From: Antitrichia curtipendula
Lineage: Eukaryota; Streptophyta; Bryopsida; Hypnales; Leucodontaceae
Assembly (NCBI GenBank): GCA_951230915.1
Contig: OX579637.1
Span: 28,334,001-28,398,000, forward strand
Length of the DNA stretch: 64,000 nucleotides
Direction: 5' to 3'
Part shown: in pieces, positions 10,031 through 48,479 of the stretch
Numbering within the stretch: position 1 is the first letter of the stretch
Layout of the letters: each line of letters opens with the position of its first letter
The notes under the pieces: model-generated
Told to the model about the DNA's origin: nothing
Database searches by the model: none
The model's input: the letters and a program-made list of their open reading frames with translations, nothing else
Program-made: the position numbers and the translations under genes

Positions 10031-10044
10031 GGTAAATCTTAAAA

Positions 10045-11805: not shown

Positions 11806-14636
11806 GAATTGAAGCCAAACTTTGCTTGATGACTTCAATTTGAGCAGCAGAAATCTTGATCATGCACTCTGTGGTATCTTTTTGAATTCTAGACTTCCGC
11901 GCGGTCATCAATACATCTATATGCTGTCAACGTGGTGGTTCGGTTTCATCAACCTTCCAACGCATACCTCTTTCATCGTCCCATCCAGTGTAGAAGTTCT
12001 GAACATCCTCATCTCTTGATGTTGGACGGAAATACTAAATGTGCACACAATTTGGTTCTCAAGGGTTACAATGTGGATCAGACAATGCCCTTGCAATCCA
12101 AACTAGATGATTGTCACCATCTGCTGGCCTTACTGCAAGGAAGTAGCCATCAAAAACATCTCGAATCACCTTGAAAGATGGTTGTGGGCGACCCCGTGAA
12201 GGTCCGACGTAGGCCTCATCTTCTCCAAATTCTTCATGGTCTTCGCCGTCTTCGTCTAACCGATCTTCTTGAGTTGCTTGAACTCAAGTAGCCAGCCAGA
12301 AACCATCCTTTAAAACAATAGATGCAGGTAGTGGTTCTTACAACGTGCTCTTCACATCACATCAATAGTGCACCACATGCTCGTAGCGTCTTTTGCATTC
12401 CCCAGTGATGTCTGCATTGCACAAGTCCTCCCAATACTTCACAAATCCATGTACATCCTTCACAATGTCATCTAAACCCTTCATTGCCTTCTGAGGAACT
12501 GCCAACGGTACCCGTTCCGGCCACAAACTTTTTCCTTTAGCATCTTCTTTCCACAACTTAATGCATGTGCCGTTTTCCCCTAACCAGTCGACATCAGTAC
12601 ACAATAGTTTGTACTTCATGACAGGACATCCTGTGGAATCTAGATAGAACTTCACTTGCTGTGGTTGCTTGTGTCCAACGAGGATGTCACCACCGTCCAC
12701 AAATGAACCTACAATGAAATCCTTGAAATCAGGCACCTCTTCCACAAGGTGAGGGATAGTGGGAATGGACTCTTCATCCATGAACGACTTCATAAGTGCA
12801 GGAATTGTAGGGAAGTTCTCCTTCTTTAGTTGCATGCTCCATCTTCCGAACAGTGCATCAATGTCATTGTGCGTGTGACCCACAATCATGAAGTTCATGT
12901 ACACTTCACGGAAGATCTTGTTTGCAACAAGTAGAGACCAGAAACAGAAAACATATCTATTCTTATTGTCCCCAGTGGCATTGTCCATCTGCACAATGAG
13001 AATGGGTGGCAACGGTGATGCCGGAACCAAGTTAATTGGCGGTGGGGCAAGCGACGCTTTGCACATCTCCACAACCTTCATAACTGCCTTGAACAAATTT
13101 GTTGAAGGCGATCTCGCAAACAATTGCCGAGAAGAAGACTTCGGTGCCAATTCAAGATCTTGCAACAACTTTGCCATAGAGTCAATGGTATTGTTTGAAT
13201 CTTGAGGAAATAGATCCAAACTATAATGCGCATAGCGCACATCAGCATGACGATGCGCAATCATTCCCATGACAAACACAGGCAACTTCATGAAACCATT
13301 AGTGTCTTTATTCTTGTGGAAAAAGACTAGACAAGCGGTTTTGGAATGATCCATCTTGTCGTGCATGATGGTGAGGCACTCGTGCGGAAAGGTATGCGAT
13401 TGATAATGGTTTGCATAGTACAACTCCTTGTAGGCATGCGCAATAGCAAGATGTTTGTCCAACTTCCGCGACCACATGAGAGCGGTCTTTGAACCAACAA
13501 GAGCACCCTTCCTCAGCTCTTTCAGTTTGTCACAAGTAGCGCACCGAGCAAAATTGTCCCCTAGCTTTTTCACCTCATACTCCAAGAGTTTGGAAGACCT
13601 GATCCTACTTAAATTTGAGAATGAAACTTCAGGCAATCCAAAGGCTGCATTGGTATCATTGATTTCTTTCATCTTCTCCTTGCATTGAAACGTAGGCGGA
13701 AGACATATGGACACAATCTTCTCCCCCGTCTTCATAGTTCGAGTACAATGTGCCATGTGATCGGCCTTTTTGTCAAGGAGACACTTCAAGGTAGCAAGCT
13801 TGTTCAGCGTGTTTCCTTGGCTTCACCAATCTCGTATTGCCATGGTCCTTTGCTTCCCGACGACCCTTCATGTCCTTCAGATACCGAAAGAATGTGGTAT
13901 TCAAGACACCAGCAATATGCCTCCAAGCTTGCATGCAAATCGGGACCTCTTCAACCGTCACCATCTTCATTCCACGAGAGTCGCAATGGAAATGTCTATG
14001 GATGTCCATCTTTATGAAGGCTCTCTGCTTGAACGTTGAATTATGGTACATTTGCTCACGGAAGGCTCGAATCTTCTCTCTAGGAAATGGCTGAATACAA
14101 TTTCGGACGCAGCAAACTTTGCTGGAAACTGCGTTGATGGACACTTGTGTAAGCAGACCCTTTGACTTCAGGGAAGTCTCGCGATGAGGTTTTTTGAGGA
14201 TACTCGAATAGGGTCTGCTAGGTGTCAAAGACGATGGGTTTAGAAGATTTGTTTCGAAACAATTAAATTTATCTCGGGCTTCATGATCATGAAGGCTTAC
14301 CCCACGTCAATGGACAAGCTTAATAGGCCAAGCCATCAAAGTGTAAATTTGTTCTTGGGAGATGTCGTCTTCTGAATGTGTCCTAAAAATGAACACTGCA
14401 ACATGAGTGTCGCCCAGAGGACCTTCAGCACCGAGAACCAATTTGGAATTTACACTATGGCAGGTAATGTCCCCAACAAGTACTCCACCTTCACTGTACA
14501 AGGTGACGCACTTTGTATTCCAAAGCCTACGCGGAATACCCTCGCAAACTGAAATGTCTTCACTCATTTCCTGAGGAATCTGGAGTTCCCCATCTGAATC
14601 TCCCATTAGTTTGTCAAGGTCAACTTCTGAGGCCAT
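11806..14636 (-). pseudogene. DUF7869-type transposase-like protein, decayed
   Basis: One frame runs from ATG at 14636 to TAA at 11806, about 940 codons, with breaks. The N-terminal third has a cysteine cluster (SSKVCCVRNC, then HFHCDSRG). The middle, the longest open stretch (12362-13789), carries VQMDNATGDNKNRYVF and VGHTHNDIDALFGRW, the hallmark D...GHTHxDID core of DUF7869 proteins, which I take to be an RNase H-like transposase-related fold. The C-terminus retains FLAVRPADGDNHLVWIARA and YTGWDDERGMRWKVDE. Breaks are a TGA at 14307, a single-base frameshift near 13795, and six stops after 12365, mostly TGA at plausible Arg positions. It is a near full-length but inactivated copy. Its 5' leader intron bears the same palindromes as the plus-strand gene at 22.9-30.2 kb, suggesting one element. 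Confidence 0.7.
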
Positions 14637-15690
14637 GTCACCTGAGAAAAAAACATATCCATTAAATGTGTTAATAACATTGATTCCATATGATATACAA
14701 TTCAGCTCAACCTACGCTGAATGTCCATTGCGAATGAATCTGTATTAGAGTTCCATGCCGTCAAATGTTCAATAACGTTTATAAACGTGTATTGCAATTC
14801 AGCTCAGCCCGCGCTGAATTGATTCTAAGGTCGAGGATTGGAAATGTTCACGTATTATAATTCTCCACGATCAGCGTCGATAAGTAATTCAGCGCGGCTC
14901 GAGCTGAATTGTAATACAAGGACATTAGTGTGATATGGCGAAGACCAGTGAACTGCAGTATCTGATTAATTCATTGGGAACAAGATGTTATTATAATTAT
15001 ATTGACACCATGCCATTGTAATTCAGCTTGGGTCGAGCTGAACTATAGTTCTGAATCACTAGAGCAGTGCACTGCAAATATGCAATGGATTCCAGTTTAG
15101 CGCTAAGCGCGCTGAAATGTAATACTATGATTTTATTAAACTTTTAGGAATGGTCAATGCTCTACTGCAATTCAGCATTAAGCACGCTGAAATGCAATAC
15201 AATGATGAATATTAATCTTGTAGGCATGGTCGGTCCTCTACTGCAATTGAGCGCTAATCGCGCTGAAATGCAATACTGTGATATATACTAGGCTTGTAGC
15301 CATGGTCAGTCCTCTACTGCAATTCAGGGCGGTCAATGCTGAATTGCAATTCAGACCCGACCAAACTCAACTGCAGTTCTCCTTCGCAAATACCGGGACC
15401 TTTAGTGTTATTTATGTTGTTTGGTTATTGATTCCGGAATTTACGGCGCCTACTTTGGTGACTGCCTCACGTTGATAGAACGCATTTCTGAAGCGGCCTA
15501 AGAAAATTGAAATCTACTGCAATGTGGGTTCTGCGATACATGAAAACATGAAATGCGACAACAGAGAATACATAATTCACTAAACAATGTCACAGCTAAA
15601 CAATGAATGGCAAAATTCTATCCTGGTGAGTGACAAGCTTTCAATAATGCAAAGAGGATAGCTTACTAGTAACAATTTGCAATGAAGTAC
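14637..15690 (-). other. Leader intron of the DUF7869-type gene
   Basis: On the minus strand a good acceptor, TTTTTTCTCAG, ends at about 14642, five bases before the ATG. A plausible donor (GGAG before GTACTT) lies near 15690, giving an intron of about 1.05 kb ahead of the coding region. The intron has no coding capacity and is filled with regularly spaced imperfect palindromes. The acceptor is clear; the donor is the best candidate rather than certain. Confidence 0.5.
14698..15376. repeat. Cluster of about nine TTCAGC...GCTGAA palindromes
   Basis: About nine copies of a 24-32 bp imperfect inverted repeat start near 14698, 14796, 14886, 15020, 15094, 15166, 15242, 15318 and 15343, mostly 70-100 bp apart. 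The best-paired arms read AATTCAGC and GCTGAATT (14796-14822). Spacers of 8-10 bp vary in sequence but are G+C-rich and contain CG dinucleotides, unlike the AT-rich surroundings. The arms keep pairing while the sequence drifts, for example TTTAGCG with CGCTGAAA. All copies lie inside one intron. Confidence 0.85.
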
Positions 15691-16050
15691 CTCCTGTAAC
15701 AACGCGACGGACAATAACAACTCGAATTCGAGTCGATCACGAAACAAAACTCCTAAAAACTCTTCAAGAAATCTAACAATACAAGTCAAACACGTACATG
15801 AAGAGAGCAACTTACGAGGAAGTCAATGCAGATGAAGAGAGGGGGAAATTGGCATGTCCGCGAGTAAGTTGATGGTGCTCGCCCGTTTTCCTGGCGGGAA
15901 CAAAAGAGCGCGGATGTTTTCAAATCTTCCCTCCTAATTTCTGATGTCCCGAGAATCATTATGGCCTTCGTAGCTTTACACCAAAAAAGCATCCTCCAAA
16001 GTGAAATTGATTCACTAGCCCCACTGAAGTTATGGGCAAAATTCTGACGA
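15691..16050 (-). promoter_or_regulatory. Probable 5' exon and promoter region of the DUF7869-type gene
   Basis: This stretch is less AT-rich than its flanks and lies just upstream of the inferred leader-intron donor on the minus strand. I infer that it holds the untranslated first exon and core promoter. I see no unambiguous TATA box. Short frames here have no motif support and are probably chance. Confidence 0.3.
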
Positions 16051-16650
16051 CGATTTCCTTATTAAATGTTTGTTGACTTTATTAGACTAAGGTGGCCCTC
16101 TTCTATTGGAAAGTTGTCACCGTCACCCGAGATGGTTGCAAATCATACCCTTAACTCCTTCCAGTTCGCATTTTGTGCTTCGCCATTAATGGTGATAGCT
16201 TCATATTAGAAAGTGAAATACTATTATAGTACTACGAGGAAAATGCCGCCACCTGCTTTTGTCGCTTATACAATATTTAATTATCACAAAGATGCAATTT
16301 TGAGTTAATTCTCAAAAAAATGCAGCAATCTTGAAGTGCCTTCCTCATTGTTGGTGTGCGGAAATTTCCTTCTCCTTTAATTGTGAGTAAGTTCTATGCA
16401 CTAAAAAATTTAATATATTAATGAACAAATAAAATGTCCACTGAATTCCACTTTCATGGGAGAGAATTTAGGAATCAGATTCTTCGGATTCTAGGTTTGG
16501 GGTTTAGGGTTTAGTAGTTAGACCTTGATCTTCCAAGCTATCAAAGTTATTGAAGGCAGTGACAAAAAAAATGTTGCCATACATTCATAACAATCTTTTA
16601 ATCTATACAAATTTGAATGAAACATAATGTATATAGGGAATCAACCATAA
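16051..16650. other. Noncoding spacer with telo-box-like word
   Basis: AT-rich spacer between the DUF7869-type gene and the tandem array. At 16495-16516 it contains GGTTTGGGGTTTAGGGTTTAG, which matches the plant telomere repeat unit TTTAGGG and the telo-box found in many plant promoters. Read on the minus strand it is CTAAACCCTAAACCCC and lies upstream of that gene. Confidence 0.5.
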
Positions 16651-19600
16651 TGTGCGGCTAAATTGTGCCCAAAAGTCATGAAATTTGTATTTGAAAGGCT
16701 TACGAAAGAATTTGTAGAAGTTGTAAATATTTCCAAGATTCAACATCTACTAAAATAATCAGTTGTTCTTCATTGTTAATTAATCTCTACTTCATGAATA
16801 GTAAAAAAATAAGAATCAACGAGGCTTTGTATTTTAATGCAACATCAATACCAAAAGCCATGGAATTGGTACGTAAAGGGCTTAATCCAAAAATGTAGAA
16901 GTTGTAAACATTATAAAGATTAGGGATCTTTGACATTTTTAAAATCGTGCACACTTTTGATGAATTCCAACGTGAATAAAAAAACGGGAATGAATTTAAC
17001 CCTGTACTTAATACACCATTATTAATACCAGAAGTCATGGAATTGATACATACAGGGCTCAAAAAAAAAAAAGTAGAAGTTTTAACCCCTAAAAGCCCAA
17101 GGGGTTTGGACAAAACACAAATGTGTTATAAAATATAAGTTCTACAACTTTTTTGAAGTTTGCATTAAAATAAATAATGTGAAGCACAAAAAGAAGAAAA
17201 TATCCGTATGGTCAAAATTATAAAATTATTCTTAGATTCTCTTCAAATGAATTTTGAAGATATAACTTCAAAAATTCACCAAAAATACAATTTCTATCTT
17301 TAGCAATTGAATTTTTTTTTGATTGGTCAAAATTGTGGTTTCTATTGATTTGTGAAAAAATGCATAAGATCCAGTAATGAAAACACCAACACTTTCCCCA
17401 AATAGTAAGTTTTTCAACACTAGGCAATACTAGACTCTTTGTGCTATTTCTCTTATAGTTTTTGTTTGACCATAGCGATCTTAGTTTTGAATATAAATAT
17501 TGAAAGAAAATCCAATCTATTAAAAAAAAAAAAAAAAAAAAATTGAAAAAAGTTTTTTTCTGCCCAAAAAATCTGCCCGAAGTCGGGCAGCGACCATAAA
17601 ATGGTCGTTTGAGCGCTTAGGGGTTAAGTATCATAAAGATTAAGAACCTCAGAAAATATTTAATTTGTGCCCATTTCTAATGAATCGAGACATGAAATAA
17701 AAGAATTGGAATAAATTTGAGCCTCATTGTGTTTTAATACACCACCTATCTAATACCAAATGTCATGGAAATGGTATGTGAAGCACTTACTTAAAAATAT
17801 GAAGGAGTTTTTAATATCAAAAAGATTACAAATCTTTGAAATAATTTAATTCATAAGCATTTTCCATGAATTCCAATGTGATTTTAAAAAATGGGAATAA
17901 ATTCGGCCCTGCTTTTCAGTACTCAGCTGATACCAAATGTCATGGAATTTATAAGTAATAGGTTTAGTGAAAAAAAATGTAGAAGTTGTAAATATCATGA
18001 AGATTAAGAATTTTTGATGAAAGTTAGTTCATGTGCATTTTTTATGATTCCTGACGTGCATAAAAAAAATGGGAATGAACTTGGCCCTGTATTTTAATAC
18101 ATCAACAATATCCGAAGTCATGGAATTTACACGTAAAAAGCTTAGTGGAAAAAAATGTAGAAATTGTAAATATCATGAAGATTAAGAATCTTTGATGAAA
18201 TTTAATTCATGCGCATTTTTTATGTTTCCCGACGTGTATAAAAAAAATGGGAATGAATTGGCCCTGTATTTTAATACAGTACCAATACCCAAAGTCATGC
18301 AATTTATACGTAAAAGGCTTCATCAAAAAGTATGTAGAATTTGTGAATTTCATGAAGATTAAGAATCTTTGAAAAAATTAAATAAATGCACAATTCTGAT
18401 GAATTTCGACGTGAATTATATAAATGGAAATAAATTCAGCCTTGAATTTTAATACACCGTCCAAAATAGAAGTCATGGAATTGGTAAGTCAAGGACTTAA
18501 TCAAGAAAATGTAGAAGTTGTAAATATCATTTATCATAAAGATTAAGAATCTCTGGATTTTTTTAATTTGTGCCTATTTGTGATAAATCCAAACATTTAT
18601 TAAAAAAATGGGGATAAATTCGGCTCTGTATTTTAATGCACTATCAATAGCTCAAGTCATGGAATTTCTACGTGAAAGTCTTAGTAAAAAAATATGTAGA
18701 AGTTGTGAATATCAACATGATTAGAAATCTTTATATTTTTTTAATTTGTGCCTTGTTTCTTAATACACCACCATTACCAAAAGTTCTAGAATTCATAAGT
18801 GAAGGGCTTAATAACAGAAAATGGGAATAAACTTGGATCCAAATCTTTAATGATCACAAATCTTGTTAGTCATGAAATTTGGACGTGAAAGGCCTATTAT
18901 TTAAAAGCATAGAAGTTGTAATTATTTTGAAGATGTCAATTCTGCAATGATATTTAAGTTGTTCCTGTTTTTAGACAATCCTACGTAAATTAAAATATAT
19001 ATACATAAATAATGCCCTATATTTTAACTACTAGTCATTAATATCCAATCATCTTCAAGTGAAATGAAAATAATCGGGAATGAACTAGGCCTTGCTTAAA
19101 AATGGTCTTCAATTGACAAATTCAATTGAGAAATCTGTCGTGGATTTTCTTATGTCATGTTCAAATATCTATTAGGCAATTGTAATTACTTTTAGGATTA
19201 AGATTCTACAACTTATGAATGTTTAATTTTATCCAATTTGAAATCCATTCTCTTACAAATAAAAAAAAATGGGAATGAAATAGACCCTGGCTCCTTTATG
19301 GAACCAAATTTGAAAATGTCCTATATTTTTGAACGTGAATATTTAAATTATTTTTAGAAAAGTTGGAATTACATGTATGATTTATATCCCACAAGAATTT
19401 TTAATTTATTTCCATTTAAAGTCCATCTTTTTTTAAATAAATAAAAATTGAGAATGATATGGCTGCTGCACTTTAATGGCTCAAATTTGAAAATGTCATG
19501 CATTTGTGTACGTGAATGTAAATTTTTTGCTATAGAAGGTTGAATCACACCTAGGATGTAGATTCCACAAATAATTTTAATTTATTCCCACTTGAAGTGT

Positions 19601-20420
19601 ATCTTTTGTGAATTAAAAAAATTGGGAATGAAATGGCTTTTGGCCCTTTATGGCCCAAATTTCAAAATGTCATGCATTTTTATTTGTAAATATTAAATTT
19701 TTTTTTATAGAAGTTGGAATTATACCTATGATTTAGATTCCATAAGAATTTTTAAATTATTCCCATTTAAAGTCCATCATATTTGAATTAAAAAAAATTG
19801 GGATTGAAATGGCTGCTGCACTTTAATGACTCAAATTTGAAAATGTCATGCATTTTTGGATGTGAATGTTTAATTTTTTTTCATAGAAGTTGAATTCACA
19901 CTTAGGATTAAGATTCCATAAGAATTTTTAATTTATTTCCATGTGAAGCCCATGTTCTTTTGAATTAAAAAAAACTAAGAATGAAATGGTTGCTGCACTT
20001 TAATGGCTCAAATTTGAAAAATGCCATGCACTTGTGTACGTGAATGTTTAAATTATTTTCATAGAAGTTAGAATTACATCTATGATTTAGATTCTACAAG
20101 AATTTTTAAAATATTCCCATTTCAAGTCCATCATATTTCAGTTAAAAAAAAATGGGAATGAAATGGCCCGTAGCCTCTTCATGGCCCAAATTTAAGAATG
20201 TCATGCATTCTTGTACGTGAATGTTTAAATTTCATTTCATAGAAGTTGGAATTACACCTATGATTTAGATTTCACAAGCACTTTTTAATTTTTTCTATTT
20301 GAAGTCCACTTTATTGGAATTAAAAAAAATTGGAAATGACATGGCCTTTGGCCCTTTTATGGCCTAAATTTGAAAATGTCATGCACTTCTATACATGAGT
20401 GTTTAAATTGTTTTCATAGA
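16650..20420. repeat. Tandem array, about 177-bp period
   Basis: A diverged tandem array of about 18-20 units. Each unit carries, in order, GTCATGGAATT-type, TACGTGAA-type, TAGAAGTTG-type, AGATTAAGA/TTTAGATTCC-type and AATGGGAATGAA-type words. Landmarks such as TGTATTTTAAT recur at about 16829, 17003, 17735, 17912, 18087, 18265, 18443 and 18628. GGAATGAAATGG recurs at about 19276, 19455, 19625, 19803, 19980, 20156 and 20335, so spacing is 170-185 bp. The two halves have drifted into subtypes but share all blocks. A MITE interrupts the array at 17087-17623. The unit length matches many plant satellite monomers. Confidence 0.85.
17087..17623. mobile_element. TTAA-flanked MITE (piggyBac-like ends)
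   Basis: A 537-bp insertion within the tandem array, bracketed by TTAA at 17083-17086 and 17624-17627. Its ends are inverted: CCCCTAAAAGC on the left, and CCCCTAAGCGC as the reverse complement of the right end. A TTAA target duplication plus ends starting CCC is the piggyBac signature. Flanking array sequence is restored if the insert is removed. Inside are a 22-bp A run (17522-17543) and, near the right end, two hairpins: CTGCCCGA/TCGGGCAG and CGACCAT/ATGGTCG. It has no transposase, so it is non-autonomous. Confidence 0.7.
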
Positions 20421-21338
20421 TTCATGTATGAATTTAATGATTTCAATAACGGGATACATTCATGTTTAAATTTAATGATTTCAATAACTTGGACTATTAT
20501 TATCCCAACTAAATGTTGACTTTCAATGTAGTTTATGTTTTGAATTAGGCAATAAGGTGTAATTCTATAATTGATTAATTTATATCTTTTTAAAAGTGTG
20601 TTACTTGTTTAGTTAAATTATTCGCCTTTACATGTGTAGTAAATCTATGACGTCTTGTAATTGAGTCTTTGAGAAACAACAAATACGGAAATTAATTACT
20701 TTTCAAATTTCAAACATACTTCAAAAAGCCTTTTATTCTTGTGTTTTATATTTTGTGGCTTGTTAATGACAAATAGTTTTTCTGTGTACGGCACAAGTGC
20801 AACAATTGTAAATCCTTGCATTCTTGTGCTAAACGGCCAAAACATGAAAAAAACTTTGATTGTGAATGAGTATTTAAAAATGTGTAGAAGTAGTTATTGG
20901 ATGTCATACAATATCAAAAGGGATGAATTGTACAGACAAGGTGTTTAACTTGAAGAGCTTGAATAATTACTAAACGTATAAATTATCTAGTCTGATATTC
21001 TATGAATTATTGATTTAAAATAATCTAAAAGCCCTCAATGGTACAAAAGTCAAAATACTTCAGAAAACTTTCGATTTTGCGAATGACATGTACAAAAGAA
21101 AACTTCCACTTGTATCGCATATGGATGGATGTGAATATGGAATCCACAATAATTTACATGTATAAGGTTTTATACATATCAAGTAGAGGCTTACTTTAAA
21201 CATCAATAAATAATGCTATAGCATGAAAAGGTATGACATGGAGTATTTGGATGGAGAGGCTCAGGTATTGGAACGGATACTGCATGAGTATCAGCCGGTA
21301 TCAGCCCGAATATTGCCACGTATCCGAGTATGGCAGCA
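20421..21338. other. AT-rich spacer, no supported gene
   Basis: About 900 bp between the tandem array and the promoter-side repeats of copy A. One 69-codon frame (20739-20948) has no recognisable motif and I do not call it. Confidence 0.4.
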
Positions 21339-21690
21339 CGGCGTTTTTGGCGGCGAAGTAGGACGAGGGTTTGGCACGCTCTTCCTATTTTTCGTTGCTC
21401 CTAATGTTTGTCGCACTCAGTTTGGACTGCTTTTTCGTTGCAATTTCTTTAGAAAAAATTTCTATGGTTGTGGAGGCGCATCCAGGCGTTGGGGTGTGGA
21501 GGTGCATCAGGTATTTTTGTAGGCAAAGTCAAGGAATAGGGTTTGGCGCGCTCATTTCTGTTTTTTCGACGCTCCCAGTGTTTGTCACGGTCAATGAGGA
21601 CTGCTTTTTTGTCGCAATTTCTGTGGAAATTTTTTTTGTAGTTGTGGAGGCACATCCAGGCGTTGGGGTGTGGAGGCGCATCCAAGTGCG
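21339..21690. repeat. Direct duplication, two units of about 174 bp
   Basis: The segment ending GTGGAGGCGCATCCAGGCG at about 21473 is repeated at about 21648, and the preceding GGACTGCTTTTT block at about 21425 recurs at about 21598. This gives two tandem units offset by 172-175 bp. The units are G+C-richer than the flanks. Frames across them on both strands simply reflect the duplication. The block sits about 1.4 kb upstream of copy A and may belong to its promoter or element end. Confidence 0.7.
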
Positions 21691-21899
21691 TCATGATGTT
21701 TAGCTCCAAACCAACGTGCATCGTGAGCTTCAGTTTGAAATTAAAGTTGGAGGTTGGGGTTGAGTTGCTCGGCCTAGGAGATTGGAGCATGCAAGGAGTA
21801 GGACGATGTCTCACAACAGGTTTGCATTCTTTTCCTGTTTGTTTTGATTGCGGTACAATCGTTTATTCCAATTTTTATTTTGACACTTTGTAGCTGATT

Positions 21900-22910
21900 T
21901 GAACATTTGCGTTCTTGTTTTCGTAATTTCTGCTCGGGGTTTTGTAATTGCTGGATTTCCTAAGCACAAATTTCTGGCGCGTTCAATTGGTGGAGTTCTT
22001 CCGTATATGTCTTCTATTGTATTGTGCGCTCTACTTTCGACGCCCTTGAAAGGTTATTTTTGTGAACCAGGTTTCTGAGGTATTCCTGGTTTCATAATTT
22101 CTGCTTGGAGTTTTGTGTATTGGTGGGTTTCGTGAATTTGTGGCTTTCCGTTAATTTCTGCCGTTTGTTTAGGCATTTGCGTTCAGGATTAGTGTGTGAT
22201 TTCTGTTTGGGGTTGTGTGGATTCGGCATTTGTAGCTCGTATAAGCATTTGCTTTTATGGTTTCGTAATTTTTGCTTGGTAGTGGTGGATTTCTGAAGTA
22301 GTCCATCTGGACGAGGTTCAGGATTGGGGGTACGTAAGCTTAGGCAATGATTCAGGATTTAGGGTTGCTATAATACTTTTCTTGATTTGGGTTTTAGGGT
22401 TTAGGGTCTACCCTACTTGTTGATGTTATTTTGCTGTAGGTCTTTTATGGATTTGGGTTTTAGAATTTAGGATTGTTGTTGTTCTTTTTTGTTTTTTTTC
22501 AAGTTCATTGTGTTTATTGTATTACTATTTGGATTCTAAGGTATGTGTTGATGTTATTTTGCTTGTCAATTTGTAATGTGAAATCCAACTTCTCTTTTTT
22601 GGGATGTAAATGCAGATAGTGTTCATTGTGCTCTTAGGATATTATGAGACTTGCTATTGTTGTTCATGTTTTTTTGTGTGTTTGTTTATTCCTGTGTTAT
22701 TCGTTTCTTCTTGTTTATTCCTCAGATTAGTTGCTGTCAGAATTATAATAGCATTACGATTTCTAACTGAGTGGAAGACTAATAAGTTTTATGTGCAACA
22801 TTGGATTTGTTCTCTGGACTGAGACTGAAACCCTAAACTAGACCAACACGAGCAAGGACAAAAAGTGCGTGGAGGAGCCAACTCCAAATCTGCGTGCAAA
22901 CAAACTGGTA
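21900..22910 (+). promoter_or_regulatory. Probable promoter and leader exon of copy A
   Basis: A T/G-rich region with four degenerate repeats of a TTTCGTAATTTCTGCTTGG-like word (about 21915, 22090, 22195, 22258) and a telo-box-like GGGTTTTAGGGTTTAGGG at 22388-22405. It ends at a plausible splice donor (AACTG before GTATGT) near 22910. I infer that the upstream promoter and untranslated first exon of copy A lie here. No clear TATA box is visible. Short frames in this region have no motif support. Confidence 0.4.
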
Positions 22911-23713
22911 TGTATTCCTAAACTACGCAATGTTTTGTTTAAAGCAAAACCCCTAAAATCCAAGCCAATACATAATGAACAAGCTTTGTCATTTTAGCGT
23001 GAGGCGCGCTGAAATGACAAATATACTCTAGTCCACGTAGAACATATTTGTCATTTCAGCGTGTCTCGTGCTGAAATTCAACGAAGGCAACACGTAAGCC
23101 AAAAAGATCACAAACTGATTCAACCATATTGTTAGCAATAGCAAATCAAAGTCAACCATTTCTGTCTTATAGGGGGGCCAAGCAGGCGTAGAAAACTACA
23201 AAGAATATGTCATTTCAGCGCTAACCATGCTGAAATGATATATTCTCAATAGTTTAGTGCACAATTTTCATTGACTGAACATACATTCACTACTCTTAGA
23301 ACATATTACATAGAAGCAGATACACAAGATGTAGGATATGGAAACAAACTGATAGAAGCACAATTGACAAATTAGCGCGGCTTGCGTTAAAAAGACATCA
23401 AGTGGACCAAAAGACTTATAGTGCATACATACATACCATCATTATATAACAATCGCACATGATCAACAGCAGTCAATCAATGATACACACGTAGGATTGT
23501 CACAACAAGAAATAGTCAAATTCGGAACCATTATAGCTCGTGTCTAACTCAAAAGACCGTATACCAGCTTCGAAACTCCTTCAATTGTCATTTAACGCGA
23601 CTCGTGTTGAAAGACAAAATGATATGTACTAAACAAGAACACTACAGTCATATACGCTTATATAGTCATAGCTCTAGAAATGCATGAACTCATAATCTGT
23701 TCGTAGTTTGCAG
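22911..23713 (+). other. Leader intron of copy A with five palindromes
   Basis: Intron bounded by the GTATGT donor near 22911 and the acceptor TTTGCAG ending at 23713, one base before the ATG at 23715. It contains five palindromes: 22988-23018 (arms of 12 bp with one mismatch, GTCATTTTAGCG against GTCATTTCAGCG), 23049-23077, 23210-23238 (perfect 10-bp arms TCATTTCAGC/GCTGAAATGA), 23369-23392 and 23587-23615. This mirrors the leader intron of the DUF7869-type gene. Confidence 0.65.
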
Positions 23714-25159
23714 AATGGAGAATCATGTGGAGGCGCTAGATATGTACTTCAAGAAATGTGAAATACAGCTAGAAGAGAAACACACTGGTAAAGACGATTC
23801 TCTCATGGAGGGGGAATACTGGAAATTCAAAGAGCCAGACAGAGTAGAGTTTTGGGGATTCATCATGCTCGCATTCTCAAACGAGTTCTGCTTTGCATAC
23901 AAGTTCAAGAATGCGCAGGTCTTCCTCAATCTATCATTTGAAGAGAGAATGAAAGATGTGGAGACGGACACCCATCCCACGATCAAAATCAAATGTGTCA
24001 CGGCTATCAAGGGCGTCCAGAAGAAAGATCAATACCACTTCACAATATGCTTGGACTCTATAATGATTCTGTTCAACATGACCCCTTACTTGGTAGCCTG
24101 GATCCGACGCCCTTCCATCAAGATGTCAAGGAACTAGAGAAGAAGATTGACAACAAAGAATGGAAAAATGCTAACGGGACGCCACTAGCCTGGAGGCAAC
24201 TTGTTTCAAAAATCCGGGCCCTCCTCAAGAATTTTGACACGTTGAGAGGGAAGTATGAAATGCAGAATGTCCTAAATAGAGTCAGTCTCTGTGGACGTTG
24301 CCAACCAGTGCGTCAGCCAATGCTCAAAGAAAACCACAAAGCAGGATTCTGGAAGCAGTCGGGGTTAGAAAACCGCTTAGAAGTCCACTCCCAAGATGAC
24401 GCAAAACAAGGGAAAGAAGGCCGCAGTTTCTCCTTCTGTAAAGAAAGTCACGGCAAGATCCTTGAAACAATCTGAAGTGCATGACGACAGCTTCGTAGAG
24501 GAGATGGCAAATGTTCCTCTTTCTTGGGCAACGGAGAGAAAGCCAAACTACAAGGCCATCAGCAAGGCATACCAGAAGTACTGGAAAACATGCGAAGACG
24601 CGTATGTCTTCGCGGTTGATGAGAAGAAGGCAGTCGACATCTCCGAATTAATTGAGGCACCATTTACATTCAACATTCGGTCTAAGCAACAAAGAATAGT
24701 GGAAGACAACGTGACCTATCTCCTGAACATCCTTGACAAGAGTACAAAGCAGACTCTTTGTGTTATGCCCGTCGGCCTCACCAAAAAACCAGAGAAGTGG
24801 GAAGAAATTGAAGGCGGATAGTTTTACGTCATTAACGGCCAACATAGCATTGAAGCAAGCAAGTTCATACTCAATGACGAAAACGGTGTTGACCACGATG
24901 AAAGAAAACATTTCAAAAAATGGAACTGTTTCATTGTATGGTCGCTGGATGGAGAGAAGTATGAACCATCTCCGCATACTATTATCGGGTGAATCATTTC
25001 ATAGCGGTTCAACCATCTTGGGCGACAAATATTCTAGGAGCTCGAGCAGTATAGGGGGCTATGGGCAAGCTGAAGAATCCAGCTCAAGTTCAGTCGGTGG
25101 GGGTATTAGCCAATACCAAGCAAACTGTCGAAAACCGAAAGAACAAAGACTTGTTCCAG
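23714..25159 (+). pseudogene. Copy A exon 2: helical N-terminus and ParB-like segment
   Basis: Starts at ATG 23715 one base after a splice acceptor. The N-terminal region (MENHVEALDMYF...) matches copy B (48379 downward) through the KKDQYHF region and the ELEKK region. The ParB-like segment at about 24660-25030 reads KQTLCVMPVG, then FYVINGQHSIEASKF. The VINGQHS...A.K pattern resembles the GxHR nucleotide-binding box of ParB/sulfiredoxin-fold proteins. Breaks are a one-base deletion near 24070, a frame change between the segment ending near 24380 and the one opening at 24396, TAG at 24820, a one-base deletion near 24975 and TAG at 25037. Each break is placed by comparison with copy B, which has a different set. 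ParB assignment is motif-based only. Confidence 0.6.
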
Positions 25160-25379
25160 GTTTGTCATTCAGCGCAATTTAAGCTGATTTACAATGGCTC
25201 CATTTCACTCTCAAATGTATTTGATGAAGCGTACTCTGTACATATTAGCGCTTATCGAGCTGATCTGCAATGACTTCTTGTCTCTCTCATATGTATTTGG
25301 TGAGGCATTCTGTCCACAGGTTAGCGTGGGTTGAGCTGAAGTGCTTGTTCTAACAATTATTCTTTGGAATCAAGTGTAG
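25160..25379 (+). repeat. Copy A intron 2 with three palindromes
   Basis: A 220-bp intron (donor TTCCAG before GTTTGT, acceptor GTGTAG) that is largely made of three palindromes about 75 bp apart: 25164-25192 (CAGCGC...AAGCTG), 25243-25264 (TTAGCGC...GAGCTGA) and 25320-25341. Arms share the TTAGC/TTCAGC and GCTGA core with the leader-intron set. Confidence 0.75.
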
Positions 25380-25925
25380 GAGTTTGAGAAGGCGGAATTT
25401 TTGCGATTCTCCATGATCGAAGTAAACAAAAGCTTGAAAATATCAAAGGTGAAGGGAAAAGAGGAGAAACTGAAAGTGACAAACGAACTGAAGCTCATCA
25501 CCGCTCCCGAGCATGTTTACAAACTTTGGGGCGAGGTTATCTCTGCAGCCGCACATGGTCAACTACTCAACCCTGACACGAATAGGTTGTTCAACGTGAA
25601 GACAGATTGGAATCCGGATACGCTGGCACTAAATCGAGAATTCTTTAAACATTTGGGCAATCTGAGCTATGACAAGCTGGAGAAACTAGCAAAGCACATT
25701 TTCAACCAGACGGGTAGCAAGCGCATCCTCTCCTACCCCAAGGTGACGATTAAGAGCATTTTGTTTGTGCTTGAGAGCTGCTACAATATAAAGGAATGGG
25801 TAGAGAGGCGGAAGCGAAAGCACCTTGTGAAGAAAGAGCTTTACCAAATCAACCCCGAACTTGGTCTTCTGAACGCAAATAACGAGATCATCACGGAAAA
25901 TTGGAAAGCCTTCAAGAAAGATTGA
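25380..25925 (+). pseudogene. Copy A exon 3, first part: conserved linker domain ending in TGA
   Basis: An uninterrupted frame of 181 codons. It includes ITAPEHVYKLWGEVIS, FFKHLGNLSYDKLEKL, YPKVTIKSILFVLESCYN and KEWVERRKRKHLVKK, and ends FKKD then TGA. Copy B aligns over the whole length (46807 down to 46262) at roughly 40-50 per cent identity by eye, and also ends FKKS then TGA. In both copies an ATG follows seven codons later in the same frame. I do not recognise the domain; it is alpha-helical and basic. It directly follows the ParB-like segment, so it may be the DNA-binding part of that protein. This is the best-preserved exon of copy A. Confidence 0.6.
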
Positions 25926-25943
25926 TTCTTCTTGAGGGCAACC

Positions 25944-26700
25944 ATGGATGTCCTTCTTGACAGACCTGGAGAGGCATACTTTGGTAGGGCCAAGCTTGTG
26001 AGCGCTAGAAACAAGTCATGCTCCGAGCTCTCAGACGAAGCATTTCAGTTCTTTAAGGTGTTCCTCAAGCAGTAGAAGAAGTTTGTGAAGCCCACTGCAG
26101 TGGGCCACTATCGATCATACGAGTTTGGTAAGAACTATTATTACGAGTGGCCAGCGCATTCATGGACGGATGAGATGGTCAAGCGACTGTCTCTTGGAGT
26201 CCTAGACATCCAAAATCTTCCCGGGATTGAGGAAAAGGACGCGTCCACTGTAGACAGCCATGTAGAAAAAGAAGAAACCGACACTTGAGGAGGTCCCCGC
26301 GTGGCTATTCATTTGCTCTAACGAGATAGAGCAAGCGCAGGTTCTTAGGTTCGTGGAGACAAATGAGGTCCTCAACTCCTATGCCCTGGATTTTGCGTTA
26401 TACACGCCAGGGAAGAATGACCGCCTTGATGATATTGTTGCTGCCAAGATACCAAAGAAGGTGTTGCTCATTTTCTTGCAGAACCCCAAGAACGTGAATC
26501 CCGTGGTAATTCCGGACGAATTTGAATGCCTAGAGACAGCTAGGTATATGAAGGCGCGCGCATATAGTGAGCTCAAGTATCAGATTCACAACACGGAGCT
26601 GCAAATGGAGTATTATGTATGGATTGTCCGAAAGTTCTGCAATCCGGGGATGTGTGTCTACTTAGCATTCGCGGGAGGAAAATTGACGTGTGCTGCAATG
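25944..26700 (+). pseudogene. Copy A exon 3, second part: methyltransferase-like segment
   Basis: Opens at ATG 25944 (MDVLLDRPGEAYF), which aligns with copy B (MNVLLEQPGDNYW at 46243 downward) as far as the HYRSY motif. It then continues through VPAWLFICSNEIEQAQ, KKVLLIFLQNP and finally FCNPGMCVYLAFAGGKLTC at 26634-26690. The last string resembles the S-adenosylmethionine motif I region of beta-type DNA methyltransferases (pG.hVhD.FaGxG.T), and gene E has a clearer version at the equivalent place. Breaks are TAG at 26073 and a one-base frameshift near 26275 in an A-rich run. Copy B lacks most of this segment. The methyltransferase reading is tentative, and the catalytic DPPY-type motif is not evident. 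Confidence 0.45.
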
Positions 26701-26874
26701 GTGAGACTCGCCAGGGCAAATCAGCGCGAATCGCGTTGATTGGCTCCCCTATATACATGTTTTTTGGTGATACTTAGTGTCCCGAGATGTTGTTGTGCGT
26801 TTCGGCGCGCGGCACGCTAAAGTAAAATAAGTGGTCGTTGGTGTGTCTAACTCAATAGAAATTGTCTCCTGCAG
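26701..26874 (+). repeat. Copy A intron 3 with two palindromes
   Basis: Short intron with donor GCAATG before GTGAGA and acceptor CTCCTGCAG. It holds two palindromes, 26718-26742 (AAATCAGCGCG...CGCGTTGATT) and 26799-26822 (TTCGGCG...CACGCTAAA), 80 bp apart. Confidence 0.7.
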
Positions 26875-27936
26875 ATGAGTTCTATTGATGTCTATGCAAG
26901 TGGATTATCCGAGCAGTCGTTCTAGTGGCAAGATATCTGCATAAAGGCCATGACGTTAGACAAGGCAGATTTTCTAGAAGACGGTTACCCTGTGAACGTC
27001 GGAGTAGGTCCAAGTTCATCGACCTCCCTTTCGGAGAAGAAGCTGTGGGCGGGTCAGGATTCTCTTTGGAGTCTAAAGGGAAAGAAGGCGGATCTTGTTG
27101 TCGACCTTGAAGAGGAAGAGTTCGAGGAAGAGAGTGAAGAAGAGGTCGATCACGAGGACTACAATGACAGCGTTGGGCTCGACGATATCCAAACACCAAC
27201 CAGCCATCCGTCTTCAAAAGTATCGGGCTTGCCGGGTTCCTCTATGCTGCCTCTACTGCCCCATACGCCAGTAACGCCGACTCCTTCTACTTGCCCAACA
27301 AAAAAGAAGAAGCGGGAGACGATTGCCAGCGCAATGAGGAGCATGGTTGAATTCCAAGCCCAGAGTGCACAATAACTAGCAAATATGCAGAAGCAAGCTG
27401 AGCTAACGTAGAGGCAAACTGAGCTTGCACTAGCTGAACTTAGAGCCAACAATAGAAAGGAGAGACTAGCAAACATGGAAATGCATAATACTAGCCAGAA
27501 GTGGATGCGAGAAGAATTCAGAAATAATCGGGAGCTGGCCATGCAGAACAAAAAGATGCTTCAGATATTGATGGGCAAGGTTGGAATCAAACCCATCGCC
27601 TTGCTGCCACCCGCATCCCGGTCTCCCTCATTGCTTTTGGAGGGGCAATCATCTGGCTCAAACATTAGCATTGCATCGAGCCCTTCGAAATCGGCACAAA
27701 CCACTCCACCTCTATCGTCCGGCCTACCCATTATGGTTCCCCTTCCTCTACATGAAGAGAATATCGATACTCCAATTCCATCGTCAGAGAGTCAGGATGT
27801 ACCTCAGGAGCACCCAGCTGTCAACCAAGGAGCGACAAAGATCATTGCGGAGGGAGTTGGAATTGGGCACAACCTGGTCGTGGATGCTTCCGAGGTTGAA
27901 GTTAGAATTGCTGCACTACCGATTGGAGATCCACCA
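26875..27936 (+). pseudogene. Copy A exon 4: acidic region and glutamine-rich coiled coil
   Basis: A single frame throughout, with stops at 26923 (TAG), 27373 (TAA) and 27409 (TAG). It has an acidic stretch (LVVDLEEEEFEEESEEEV), a Pro/Ser/Thr-rich linker with a basic KKKKRE patch that could act as nuclear localisation, then a coiled coil (LALAELRANNRKERLANM...) and a Pro/Ser-rich tail. The TAA and second TAG fall in the Gln-rich heptads where Gln is the natural residue. Copy B has the equivalent region at about 46000-45070, including a conserved exit at DPP before the donor GTAGGTT. Function unknown; a nuclear scaffold or oligomerisation region is plausible. Confidence 0.55.
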
Positions 27937-28184
27937 GTAGGTTGTGCTCAATAATCTTCTTGTGTCATCTTGTGTAGTTTCAGCTCAACTCGAGCTGATC
28001 TGTATGATAGAGTTTGTCTTGTAGAATTCATTTCCTAGAGGCAGTATTCTTTTATACCGGAGCTCTATATTTAGTAGAGCAAACTGTAGTTTTAGAAGTG
28101 TTGCACTCAATTTTGTATTTTGTAATCCAAATGTGTAATATATAAATTTCTCACTGAGAATGTTTTCTACATCTTGAAGCGCAG
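27937..28184 (+). repeat. Copy A intron 4 with palindrome
   Basis: Intron from the donor GTAGGTT at 27937 to the acceptor GAAGCGCAG. It contains one palindrome at 27977-28001 with arms TCAGCTC/GAGCTGA. The same intron of copy B retains TTAGCTCGACTTGAGTTGA on its coding strand near 45005, so this palindrome is shared between paralogues. Confidence 0.7.
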
Positions 28185-28393
28185 GCCCTACAAATCCTCG
28201 AAGTTTGCCTGATGTTTGTCATTCACCCTCCGCACAATCTCAACCGCCTATGTCTCCAGGGCCCTTGCACAAAAATGACTTGTTGTCAAGTACCGTCCAG
28301 TCTTTGGTATTAGGTGAGGACATATCTATCCGCGATCATGCTCAATCAGGTCATGAAGGTAATGATCGACCATCAGGTTCCGTGTCAAAGAAG
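28185..28393 (+). pseudogene. Copy A exon 5: proline/serine-rich linker
   Basis: About 69 residues (PTNPRSLPDVCHSPSAQ...) open without interruption between good splice sites. The exit SKK before GTACAA matches the exit KEQ before GTATTT of copy B's equivalent exon (44813-44632). No domain recognised. It links the coiled coil to the phosphatase domain. Confidence 0.5.
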
Positions 28394-28542
28394 GTACAAT
28401 CCATGAACTCAAATCTCTTTGTCTATCTAGGCTTTATTTTTTGTTTTGCGGTGGTCAAATTTTTAGTGTGATTTTGCATGAGGACCGAAATGTGCCAATT
28501 CCATGGACGTAATTGGCAATGCATTCTTCCATTTGTTAGCAG
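28394..28542 (+). other. Copy A intron 5
   Basis: A 149-bp intron. Unlike the others it lacks a TTCAGC-type palindrome, but it contains a different perfect inverted repeat, TGCCAATT...AATTGGCA, with arms at about 28493-28500 and 28511-28518. Confidence 0.6.
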
Positions 28543-29354
28543 GGATTGGATCCTTTGTTAGCTCATAAAGAATCATCAGAGGGCATCCATTGGCCATTGA
28601 GGTCCGCAGCGGCGGAGAAGTGGATCAGTGTCGTCTTGGACCTCAATGGCATTCTTTGTGTTAGCGAGGATTGGAAGTCCAAGGGGTCCATCAAGCAATT
28701 CAACCATCAGTCGGAGCCACACTCCGCCATGGTTGGTGTGATTGTGGGGCCAAAGGCAGTCTACGTCCGGCCCAAGTGCTTTGCATTTCTGAAGGAGCTA
28801 GAGAAGATAGCCTTTGTCTCTGTTTGGAGCTCCATGAGAAAGTCCTCCACTGAATGCATTTGCTTGTATCTTTTCCGGGACGGAGGGATGCCCTTCCTCA
28901 TCCTTGGGTAGAACTCTTGCAAGACAATTAAGTATAAGGATAGATTTGGGAAATTGATCTCGTATAAAGAACCTGGAACCGACAAGGAATTGTTCTTGAA
29001 GAAGATGGACGTATTGTTTGATGACTCGCGAGGGAATTTTTCTTCAGGCAACACCGTTATAGTAGACGATAGCCCTTGTAAGCACATCTTGAACAACCCG
29101 GAGAATGTTATACTCTCCGACTCCTGGAGTAATCGGGGGAATGGCGACAAGGACACTTTTCTCCTTGCAGTCCTACTTCTTTGGTTCCAGGGATTGCACG
29201 CCAGCCGCGGCGTGGGACTCAAGTCATTTCGGAATGATAAGAAATGGAGAATTGGGAGGTGGATGCTGTGCAAGGAAAGGGGTCGTTGAGAGTATGACAA
29301 ATTCATAGAGGTGGTGTCATGTTCGAGTAGATTTAAGTAGTACAACGACTAGAG
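28543..29354 (+). pseudogene. Copy A exon 6: FCP1/NIF-like HAD phosphatase domain
   Basis: The frame carries the HAD-type nucleophile box as VVLDLNGILCV (motif I DxDG/DxNG), then IAFVSVWSSMRKS (motif II region) and NTVIVDDSPCKHILNNPENV, the classic VDDSPxK acid box of NLI-interacting-factor/FCP1-like phosphatases. In eukaryotes such enzymes dephosphorylate proteins, notably the RNA polymerase II tail. Motif I has Asn where catalytic FCP1-type enzymes have the second Asp (DxDGT), so activity is doubtful. A TAG at 28909 aligns with Gln in copy B, and a TGA at 29288 aligns with Arg. A TAG after RFK is at the same position as a TAG in copy B and may be the true end. I know of no transposon family defined by this domain, so it looks like captured cargo. 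Confidence 0.7.
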
Positions 29355-29572
29355 GTATGTCTTTCAGCTTGAATCAAGCTGAAGTGTATTTTTTATCCAG
29401 CTGCTGAATATGGTGTACAGCCTCTACATTTCAGCTCGAGTCGCGTTGATTTATGCGGCAAATTATTTTGCGGTCCGTTGAATATTTGTGATTGTGTGTG
29501 ATTGTATTTCAGTATATGCCCACTCCTCAGTTTTGCGTATTCTGGTTCTGATGTAAGCTTTTTTTGTGTCAG
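29355..29572 (+). repeat. Copy A intron 6 with two palindromes
   Basis: Intron from GTATGT at 29355 to the acceptor TGTGTCAG. It contains 29363-29383 (perfect 8-bp arms TTCAGCTT/AAGCTGAA) and 29428-29452 (TTTCAGCTCG...CGCGTTGA). Confidence 0.7.
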
Positions 29573-30208
29573 ATGGGGGGTGCATTAGAACCCTTTGCGT
29601 CAAAAGAGGTTTTTCCATGCCAGGCGTCTGCGGATTCTATCCTAGACTATAAGCAGTATGTAGTACTCAACACCGGGAACTTTCTCTGCTCAACATCCAC
29701 ACTCAATTCTAGTATGGATTTTTCTGTTAAGCCCATCGAAGATGATGTGGTGGACAGTCCTCCAGATCAAAAGCCTCGTCTGGCGATTTTGTGCTCGCCA
29801 TCTCCTTTGCGGTCAAGGAAAAATCAAAATTCTTCATTGTCGCCAACAGCTTCGGACAAAGGGACGCAAAGGAGGTTGTACGGAGACGCCAACTATCCCA
29901 TGCCAGTTGCAAAATTGGAGCTCAATGTCTCAAAGAAGCCACATGAGATAATTGTTCCTGCTCTTGTTGTTCCGCCGTCGCTTCCTCGCCGACATGCACA
30001 ATCACATGGGCGGGGATTAAAGAGAAAACATGATGAGCCATTGCGGAATCAATGTTCTACTCCAAGTCGGGACTTCTGGGAGCTCAAATCGTTATAGGCG
30101 CAACGGGTGGAGCACATGCGTCATGCCGGGAAAATTGTTGAAGGTTATAGTCGAGGGCCAGAGATTTTGAATATTTTGGAAAAGCTAAAGAGTACGTCAC
30201 GTAGTTGA
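29573..30208 (+). pseudogene. Copy A exon 7: C-terminal region
   Basis: Reads SADSILDYKQYVVLNTGNF, then VVDSPPDQKPR, SPSPLRSRKNQ and a basic region, ending at TGA 30206-30208 after a TAG in the SL-AQRVEHM helix. Copy B (31409 down to 30741) aligns across this length. No known domain. The conserved DSILDY...LNTGNFLCS block suggests a short functional motif. The phase between exons 6 and 7 does not fit cleanly, so this may be an alternative end or a separate product. Confidence 0.5.
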
Positions 30209-30740
30209 CACCTTACTTTAGTAAATGACTGAATAATGTAGATATAGTAGTAGATATAGAAACATGTGAATAGATGTTTCATAGAACTAAATGTTTCCAA
30301 ATATCTAATGAAGGGGTAGTATATACGTTGTGGTGAGGTCCATTACTGGATATTATAGATCCCTTACTAACATTATATTCATTAAAATGAGAGGATTCCA
30401 CTGAATTAGGAGGTGTTGAGACCAAGCAATTGGCCTACATTGCATCAAAATACAATAGATATCAGCGTGTGGAACATATAACTAGTACCATTAACAAGTA
30501 CAATATATCAGCGTACATAGTATGAAAAAGGGGACACAAAATTCAAACAATTGTGTCTTTCCAATTACATTTGATTGTTTTATACAATCGTGTGATATTT
30601 TTTGACGTAAACTTCTCATAAAGTATTTTCACAATGTTTGTAATTACTGCAAGTGTGATTCACTGCAGCATTGCAATGTATGTAATATGTGCAGATAGCT
30701 TGTGTACCTCTAGACTATGACTCTACAATATCAACATCTC
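30209..30740. other. Spacer between convergent copies A and B
   Basis: About 530 bp, AT-rich, between the 3' ends of copies A (plus) and B (minus). I searched by eye for shared terminal repeats from either side and found none that I trust. Confidence 0.4.
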
Positions 30741-32212
30741 CTATATGTGCAACTTACTCTTGAGCTTCTCTATGGCTTTCCTAATCTCTAGCCCGCGGCT
30801 GTATCTGTTACTAGCCTGCTTGTATTCTTGTCATGCTTGTCACCTCTGTAGTTCTAAGAACTTTTGATCCCACTGGTCAAAAAATGGAGAAGCGCAACCC
30901 CTGGGTGCCACTTTGCTGTGCGTTTTGGTCTTTCTTATTCCCAAGGAAAGAGGTCGTGGACGAGGAATTGAGGGCAAGTCAAATTAGACAGCGAACTTCT
31001 CTTTGCGCGGTTCATATGGCACTTCTTTTTCAATTCCCAATGCTAACACTAGGGACATGGCGTTCTCATACAATTTCCTCTATGGTGCTCTGTCAGAGGC
31101 AGATGGTAACATCTGCGAAGCGAAAAGACCTCTAGACTTTAATGGAGAAGGGGAGCAGATTTTAGGCAGATGAGGAGTTCCATTCAGAGGACTGTCTACC
31201 ACACCATCCTCAAGAGGCCTAGCAAAATAATCCATGGTGGAATTAGTTATTGCCGACGAGCATAGGAAGTTCCCCGTACTCAGAATTGCGTTTTGCCCAT
31301 AGTCTAGGATGGAATCAACCGGCGCCGTACATGTGAGGTTGGCATTCAAGAACAAAAACGGAGAGAAACGCAAATTTTGAAAACAATACACAGTAAGATA
31401 TATTATCACTCTAGATCAATAGAGCAAATCCCATAAATGAATGCAATCTCAAATATTCAAGGCAAATGCAACAGACCATAATAGAAAGTAAAAGTTTGAA
31501 AACCATGATAGGAAATAAACCATAAAAGGAAGTAAAAATTCAAAAACCATAATAGGAAATAAACTATAATAGGAAGTAAAAATTCGAAAACCATATCGGA
31601 TCATTTTATTTCATGACATATGTAGATACAATGCTGAACAAGTACGTGAGTTAATACGTGAGATAATGATTCATGTATCAGATCGATACAAGCTAAAGCG
31701 CACAAGAATTTACAGTTGTTTATTTAGGTGCCTAATAGATCGAGCCGACCTGAACTACATTGTTGAAAAATACAGAGCACTATCCTATTGTAAATTCTCT
31801 GAAACTCGCACTGCATTCAATATGTTGTTGTACGTGCGACGACTTTGTTTGTCGCAGAGCATCCTCCTCCCAATTTTTTCTTTGTTAGTCTCCCAAAAGG
31901 ACTTCAACCCTATGTCTCGAGCGTTTGTCAGATGCTTGAACCACGGCAGCAACACCTCGAGCAGAAACGAGTCCTTTGGACCATTTCCCTTGTAATTCCA
32001 AGAGTCCGGGAGAATGACATTCACGGTCTTGTTCATCACATGCTTTGTTGGGTTGTCATCAACTGCAATGGTATTTTCATGGTTGAATTTCCCCCGGAAT
32101 CCCTTGAACAAGGTATTCATGTTTTTGAGGAAGAGATCTTTACTTGTGCCCGGTTCACTAAAAGTCCCGATGCACCCGAAATCATCTCTGTACTTTAGTT
32201 TTGTGCATGAGT
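30741..32212 (-). pseudogene. Copy B, 3' part: second half of phosphatase domain and C-terminus
   Basis: Minus-strand continuation of copy B beyond the element-D insertion. From 32204 downward it reads SCTKLKYRDDFG, SEPGTSKDLFLK, NTIAVDDNPTKHV (phosphatase acid box) and DIGLKSFWETNKEKIGRR, then after an intron VDSILDYGQNAILSTGNF and SPSPLKSRG. It joins directly, without loss, to the half at 44089-44440: the duplicated GCATGAGT at the insertion encodes the Ser-Cys that appears once in copy A. Several TAG, TAA and TGA stops occur; one TAG aligns with Gln of copy A (TQRR). Intronic sequence at about 31476-31593 has a roughly 45-bp tandem repeat of an AAACCATAATAGGAAATAAA-like unit. Confidence 0.65.
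32205..32212. repeat. Left target-site duplication of element D
   Basis: GCATGAGT, immediately left of the element end GAAAGCACAGTACGG. The identical octamer lies at 44081-44088. Confidence 0.85.
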
Positions 32213-32229
32213 GAAAGCACAGTACGGTT

Positions 32230-33320: not shown

Positions 33321-33321
33321 T

Positions 33322-34220: not shown

Positions 34221-34244
34221 TTTTGTACTGCTATCAGTACAAAA
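34221..34244. repeat. Perfect hairpin with GTAC core
   Basis: Arms TTTTGTACTG and CAGTACAAAA pair perfectly around a 4-base loop CTAT. This is the cleanest of many GTAC-centred inverted repeats in element D. Confidence 0.85.
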
Positions 34245-37894: not shown

Positions 37895-37899
37895 CTAGA

Positions 37900-48379: not shown

Positions 48380-48479
48380 CCTGTAGAATAGGGGAATGCT
48401 GGTATGCGAGCGTAGAGCAGCGAGCAGCAAGCGGGAAGCGGGAATTGATGAGCGGGGAGCCATAATATTAGAACTAAAA

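Follow-up and report, generated by a model that had tools for sequence, protein, structure and literature searches.

Palindromes in the introns of a giant moss transposon as candidate binding sites of an element-encoded ParB-like protein

Among described mobile elements, the closest counterpart to the locus presented here is Sola1-1_Ec32 of Ectocarpus, a 21.5-kb Sola1 element whose opposite-strand gene is ParB-like and also encodes a DNA methyltransferase; its description suggests that ParB-like proteins of algal transposons bind the DNA of the very elements that encode them (PMC12477816). A text search for "palindrom" gives no occurrence in the main text of that account (PMC12477816). Here, we analyze 64,000 nucleotides of the moss Antitrichia curtipendula (GenBank assembly GCA_951230915.1, contig OX579637.1, positions 28,334,001 to 28,398,000; "the window"), containing a decayed transposon of ~20 kb with terminal inverted repeats (TIRs), two divergent genes, and a family of palindromes (dyads). 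As in Sola1-1_Ec32, an element of ~20 kb combines a possible transposase, here a DUF7869 protein, with a predicted ParB-like gene on the opposite strand (gene A), whereas the methyltransferase has its place taken by an NIF phosphatase-like domain (PMC12477816). A ParB-like accessory gene in a giant Sola1 transposon is thus already in print (PMC12477816); the moss element would supply the sites missing from the Ectocarpus account. Sola2 transposons are described as having short TIRs and as duplicating 4 bp of AT-rich target (PMC3627910), and the family studied here is similar at its ends, with the duplications TATG, AATT, AGAA, AAGT, and AAAA. A Sola1 element of Physcomitrella is entered in a table of PMC9033089.

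The combination of a predicted ParB-like fold with dispersed palindromic sites recalls the ParB-parS, Noc-NBS, and KorB-operator systems, which are bacterial, whereas the host here is a eukaryotic transposon. Short repeated protein-binding sites, internal or subterminal, also occur in the cut-and-paste CACTA and P elements; unlike these, the moss element has full dyads scattered through introns across most of its 20 kb. Membership in CACTA (EnSpm) was rejected, as the element ends begin with AAC and not with the CACTA-like letters that define that group. The palindromes are part of a giant transposon that is bounded by TIRs and 4-bp target-site duplications and carries a DUF7869 gene and an opposite-strand ParB-like/NIF gene. 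We propose, with a probability of roughly 0.6, that they serve as DNA sites for a homodimer encoded by the element itself, the ParB-like protein being the likeliest candidate.

A sequence-only reading of the window had counted about 21 palindromes in two divergent genes, and this is borne out: eight good dyads (14695-15349) and a poor ninth (15350) precede the start codon of the DUF7869 gene, and 13 lie in gene A, its "copy A," between 22987 and 29456. The single dyad that it placed near 45005 in a diverged copy B is found at 44996, accompanied by others at 46850 and, in a further part termed copy C, at 31734. A covariance model of 24 copies lists two more weak copies, 46913 (E 0.06) and 31671 (E 0.45), situated in predicted introns homologous to gene-A introns. 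None of the predicted exons of the window genes contains a dyad, all introns of the window being sequence-based predictions. Over the elements and the miniature inverted-repeat transposable elements (MITEs) discussed below, the consensus is TTGCAATTCAGCGCGACTCGCGCTGAATTGCAA, a 33-bp odd-centered palindrome with a TTCAGC-N9-GCTGAA frame. A profile trained on the eight leader dyads alone places 9 of the 13 gene-A dyads above 17.8 bits, the highest maximum of 40 shuffles (mean maximum, 9.2), and the remaining four at 11.4 to 17.4 bits. That the arms drift and still pair also holds: across the 24 copies 75.8% of cells are paired (69.7 +/- 1.6 in column shuffles) and arm covariation is 0.314 (0.226 +/- 0.024), neither value being reached in 500 shuffles, although both statistics are inflated by kinship of the copies. 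The reported spacing of 70 to 100 bp is due in part to a 76-bp unit that has been duplicated in tandem within two different introns.

Table 1. Features of the window (positions within the 64,000-nucleotide stretch; 33-mers and 21-mers are given by their starts)
Feature	Position	Strand	Basis
Right TIR of the window element, AACATCATATTTGTTATTTTGGGAT	11249..11273	+	2 of 25 mismatches to E1/E2 right ends; E1 homology ends here
DUF7869 gene, possible transposase, decayed	12362..14636	-	PF25273 E=2.9e-41; in-frame stop ~14307, frame change ~13800
Predicted leader intron of DUF7869 gene	14642..15815	-	ctcag/gtgacATG and cctc/gtaagt read from sequence
Dyad array, n=8 (33-mers)	14695, 14792, 14882, 15016, 15090, 15165, 15241, 15317	.	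Profile and sequence reading
Predicted leader intron of gene A, 5 dyads	22908..23713	+	Ends read from sequence
Dyads of gene-A leader intron (21-mers)	22993, 23055, 23214, 23371, 23591		
Gene A (copy A), accessory gene, decayed by stops and frameshifts	23715..30100	+	74-88% to E1 exons; homology with copy B
ParB-like domain (predicted fold) in gene A; bounds are approximate and the frame is shifted	24620..25015	+	Model of homologous P0194
Predicted gene-A intron, 3 dyads (25168, 25244, 25320), 76-bp tandem unit	25160..25379	+	
Predicted gene-A intron, 2 dyads (26720, 26801)	26700..26874	+	
Predicted gene-A intron, 1 dyad (27979)	27941..28184	+	
NIF (CTD-phosphatase-like) domain of gene A	28540..29290	+	PF03031 E=1.9e-05 in window, 4.6e-15 in E1
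Predicted gene-A intron, 2 dyads (29363, 29430)	29355..29572	+	
Probable TIR of a second element, AACATTATATTCATTAAAATGAGAG	30369..30393	+	6 mismatches of 25 to nearest TIR
Copy C, 3' part of diverged gene-A copy; intron dyads 31734, weak 31671	30855..32243	-	
Copy B, 5' part of diverged gene-A copy; intron dyads 44996, 46850, weak 46913	44093..48413	-	
Related small TIR element, one dyad with other arms (TTTATCCTCAACTTGAGGATAAA)	2128..2381	+	TIRs 2128(+), 2381(-), 5 and 7 mismatches

Two copies of the element, E1 (contig C1) and E2 (contig C2), keep both ends and their 4-bp target-site duplications (TATG/TATG and AATT/AATT). They align at ~95% over E1 positions 9361 to 29182, E2 being longer by an additional stretch of some 4 kb, and their homology ends at inverted repeats, AACCTCTTATTCGTTATTTTGGTAG on the left and AACGTCATATTCGTTATTTTGGGAT on the right. 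Compared with E1, the window element shows 85 to 87% identity over its three longest stretches of good alignment and 74% over a further one; it retains the right TIR at 11249 and has lost its left end at ~30365. In E1 (19,822 bp), gene-A exons are open for 465 and 546 amino acids and the DUF7869 frame for 743, although farther up the latter is interrupted by stops (codons 19 and 204); here too a predicted 3' splice site stands ahead of the DUF7869 start codon. E1 has 25 dyads of at least 11 bits, a level to be compared with 6.5 bits in six simulated sequences; E1 sites were within the training set of this first scan, and a profile built from gene A only re-finds all 25. All of them lie in gene-A introns, around which GT-AG splice sites are readable, or in arrays preceding both start codons, and the 7 kb between the two arrays are free of them. 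Judged from sequence lengths only, all 25 dyads would miss the coding sequence with a chance of 8e-6, which rises to 0.04 when each of the seven clusters is taken as one.

Which of the two encoded proteins would bind these sites? The structure model of P0194, a gene-A homologue, matches ParB, Noc, PadC, and KorB over core residues 112 to 240, so that the gene-A product is predicted to have a ParB/Srx fold. Because bacterial relatives of this fold bind palindromes, we regard the gene-A product as the first binding candidate and the transposase as the second. The DUF7869 protein is possibly an RNase-H-like transposase, of weak resemblance to such enzymes; among the 120 relatives listed of 305, identity is 46 to 76%, and the best-scoring named relative among the matches listed is from the moss Physcomitrium patens. 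If this transposase bound the dyads as internal or subterminal sites, the ParB-like protein would have another role. We consider this unlikely, given that the E1 sites spread from 1.7 to 16.2 kb inward, away from the ends, and that the transposase fold match is weak, a Foldseek search yielding no match at E<=0.001.

Diverged relatives of gene A carry diverged dyads. A gene-A exon gives 150 scored matches of 623 candidates, 19 of them at 86 to 100% identity, one tier at 63 to 70%, and the rest at 50 to 61%; about 94 of the 150 lie on a single large contig (C5). Each of the four loci examined from the two lower tiers has dyads both ahead of its first exon match and in internal introns, 25 in total, and no exon match contains one. 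The two loci at 69 to 70% (L089 and L090) carry TTTAGC...GCTAAA, with three dyads of changed arm letters, and the two at 57% carry TTCAGG...CCTGAA or ATCAGG...CCTGAT, with one mixed ATCAGC...CCTGAT in each; the usual core is GCGA/TCGA-N-TCGC/TCGA. Dyad numbers per locus (shuffle maxima in parentheses) are 6 (<=2), 12 (<=1), 3 (<=3), and 4 (<=1); the count of three, in L091, is not above its shuffles, so the evidence there is the motif and not the number. All four loci resemble E1 in having a dyad in the intron that leads up to the fourth exon match (e4), and the two other internal introns have dyads in the 69 to 70% loci only. Copies B and C show the third dyad type at two of three sites (46850, TTAAGG...CCTGAA; 31734, TTCAGG...), with CTTAGC...GTTGAT at 44996 departing from it. 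Since the diverged copy and other subfamilies also have dyads in their homologous introns, the earlier claim that they predate the duplication stands. The TTTAGC/GCTAAA arms are also those of the RK2 KorB operator, probably by coincidence, the spacing being 9 bp here and ~1 bp there.

In the loci examined, three subfamily dyads (TTCAGC/GCTGAA, TTTAGC/GCTAAA, and TTCAGG/CCTGAA), all built around the GCGA/TCGA-N-TCGC/TCGA core, thus differ symmetrically, mostly at matching introns. Arms altered together in both halves, by subfamily, are expected of a homodimer with drifting specificity. The dyads might instead be sites for a host protein in silencing, insulation, or transcription, exploited or suffered by the element. 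As CpG-rich palindromes (2.84 CpG per E1 dyad) upstream of both start codons they would suit such a role, but three symmetrical variants in three subfamilies of one genome are easier to reconcile with a co-evolving protein of the element than with a single host factor, and we judge host binding to be very improbable.

Across the 400 Mb of genome scanned, exact TTCAGC-N9-GCTGAA occurs at 231 sites; the reversed control gives 7, and a spacer of the wrong length, N10, gives 22. Of the 50 sites listed among these 231, 42 are in large-element genes or a MITE: 29 in element genes (E1, 12; E2, 10; a gene-A locus, 3; a DUF7869 locus, 4) and 13 in the MITE. The remainder comprises one in another small TIR element, three in the unexplained locus L075, and four isolated sites. 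The gene-A and DUF7869 loci are ~60 kb apart on C2. At L075 (2466-2695), the three dyads have no element protein match or TIR pair nearby. The sequence-only reading had confined the palindromes to introns and named copies lying mostly outside the element genes as evidence against itself; the listed sites bring out part of that evidence, and the confinement holds for the large element and fails genome-wide, where MITEs and other loci carry dyads.

The MITE is non-coding, related to the large element, and present at five loci (L070 to L074), with four complete copies of 297 bp and the TIR AACACCATATTCATTATTTTGGGAG. Complete copies are flanked by the duplications AGAA, AAGT, and AAAA, the fourth (L073) by ATTT/ACTT, in which three of four letters agree. 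In the MITE as in E1 and E2, homology ends at terminal inverted repeats, as in a TIR cut-and-paste transposon. By eye, the middle of the MITE has five dyads at ~31-bp spacing, and the gene-A-only profile finds three to four per copy of at least 9 bits; 20 simulated sequences reach 10.1 bits, which leaves one MITE dyad type (10.3 to 10.4 bits) borderline. The MITE thus consists largely of tandem dyads of the element's family.

This distribution bears on the two other functions that had been offered beside protein binding, namely, RNA hairpins and remnants of intron formation. Intronic hairpins acting in splicing or small-RNA production would explain why dyads of the large element lie in predicted introns only and why the arm columns covary; they should also tolerate G.U over A.C in the transcript sense. 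Such a bias appears in copy A of the window (27 to 10, p 0.003) and in the E1 and E2 leaders of DUF7869 (35 to 13, including several similar imperfect copies), with 7 to 2 in copy B and 3 to 2 in copy C, but is all but absent from the window DUF7869 leader (10 to 9) and slight in the gene-A introns of E1 and E2 (37 to 30). The signal differs between gene sets and is not uniform; cross-training between the two genes reveals no common strand preference of the motif, and positions 14000 to 49000 hold no Rfam family above gathering score, with two sub-threshold matches. Introner-like insertion, in turn, would agree with the 76-bp tandem units in two introns. Diverged subfamilies nevertheless share the introns while their dyads are altered, and one intron pair aligns over its full length (score, 141; shuffles, <=93.5); a second pair, at 43.5, is not above its shuffles (<=52). 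Because same-family dyads account for much of the non-coding MITEs and the wobble test differs between gene sets, neither option is favored, and protein-binding sites are the best of the three; we find hairpins improbable and intron remnants barely credible.

If the dyads are protein-binding sites, a homodimer, most likely of the ParB-like protein, would bind each of them, as ParB and Noc bind parS and NBS, and with many dyads occupied the protein could coat, bridge, or mark the whole 20 kb. An element bound in this way might be helped to synapse its distant ends or to regulate its own genes. The dyads would be kept in introns because coding sequence is unable to carry them, and MITEs would retain them because mobilization needs dyads in cis. 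More tentatively, and at somewhat less than even odds, a transposon lineage may have taken over a ParB-type system, with element-encoded clamp loading at parS-like dyads in introns and MITEs and at least three co-diverged, orthogonal protein-site pairs in one genome. Concrete candidate sites and three natural candidate protein-site pairs in one genome make the self-binding idea directly testable; if true, it would show what non-coding MITEs must keep for mobility and why giant-transposon introns can provide cis-acting space.

Several observations weigh against protein binding at the dyads, or against its assignment to the ParB-like protein. Conservation of the dyad cores does not clearly exceed that of the remaining intron sequence, and no single site is under visible constraint: changed letters in core and rest are 6.7% and 5.0% for E1-E2, 18.2% and 23.5% for E1-window, 10.0% and 12.4% for E1-L079, and 6.9% and 5.1% for E1-L080. 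This speaks for redundancy or against constraint. Palindrome-correcting mutation could also yield the compensated differences. By sequence, no ParB family appears for 36 members among the families listed (25 of 27 in Pfam; 12 in NCBIfam), nor is a helix-turn-helix shown in gene A. MITE and large-element TIRs are similar, not identical, so that mobilization of one by the other is a conjecture, and the shared contigs are long (129 to 556 kb) and the genes repetitive, so that co-location is no proof of one unit.

The left part of the window element would have been truncated by a probable second element of the family, starting at 30369 and carrying the diverged gene-A copy. Copies B and C look like adjoining pieces of a single gene into which ~11.8 kb (32244-44092) were inserted; ACTCATGC is found at both joints, a possible 8-bp target-site duplication. 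The TGA in the third exon of copy A (25923-25925) is matched by a TGA at the same codon in copy B (contexts KKD-stop-FF and KKS-stop-NF), either a shared old lesion or something else. Between the divergent genes lie two arrays of a 178-bp tandem repeat (17625-20420), where E1 and E2 align with many shifted matches. The related small TIR element (TIR, AAGGTCATATTTGTTATATTGAGA) has a second copy in L070 (1298-1553), and its single dyad reads TTTATCCTCGAGTCGAGGATAAA there and TTTATCCTCAACTTGAGGATAAA in the window, a compensated difference.
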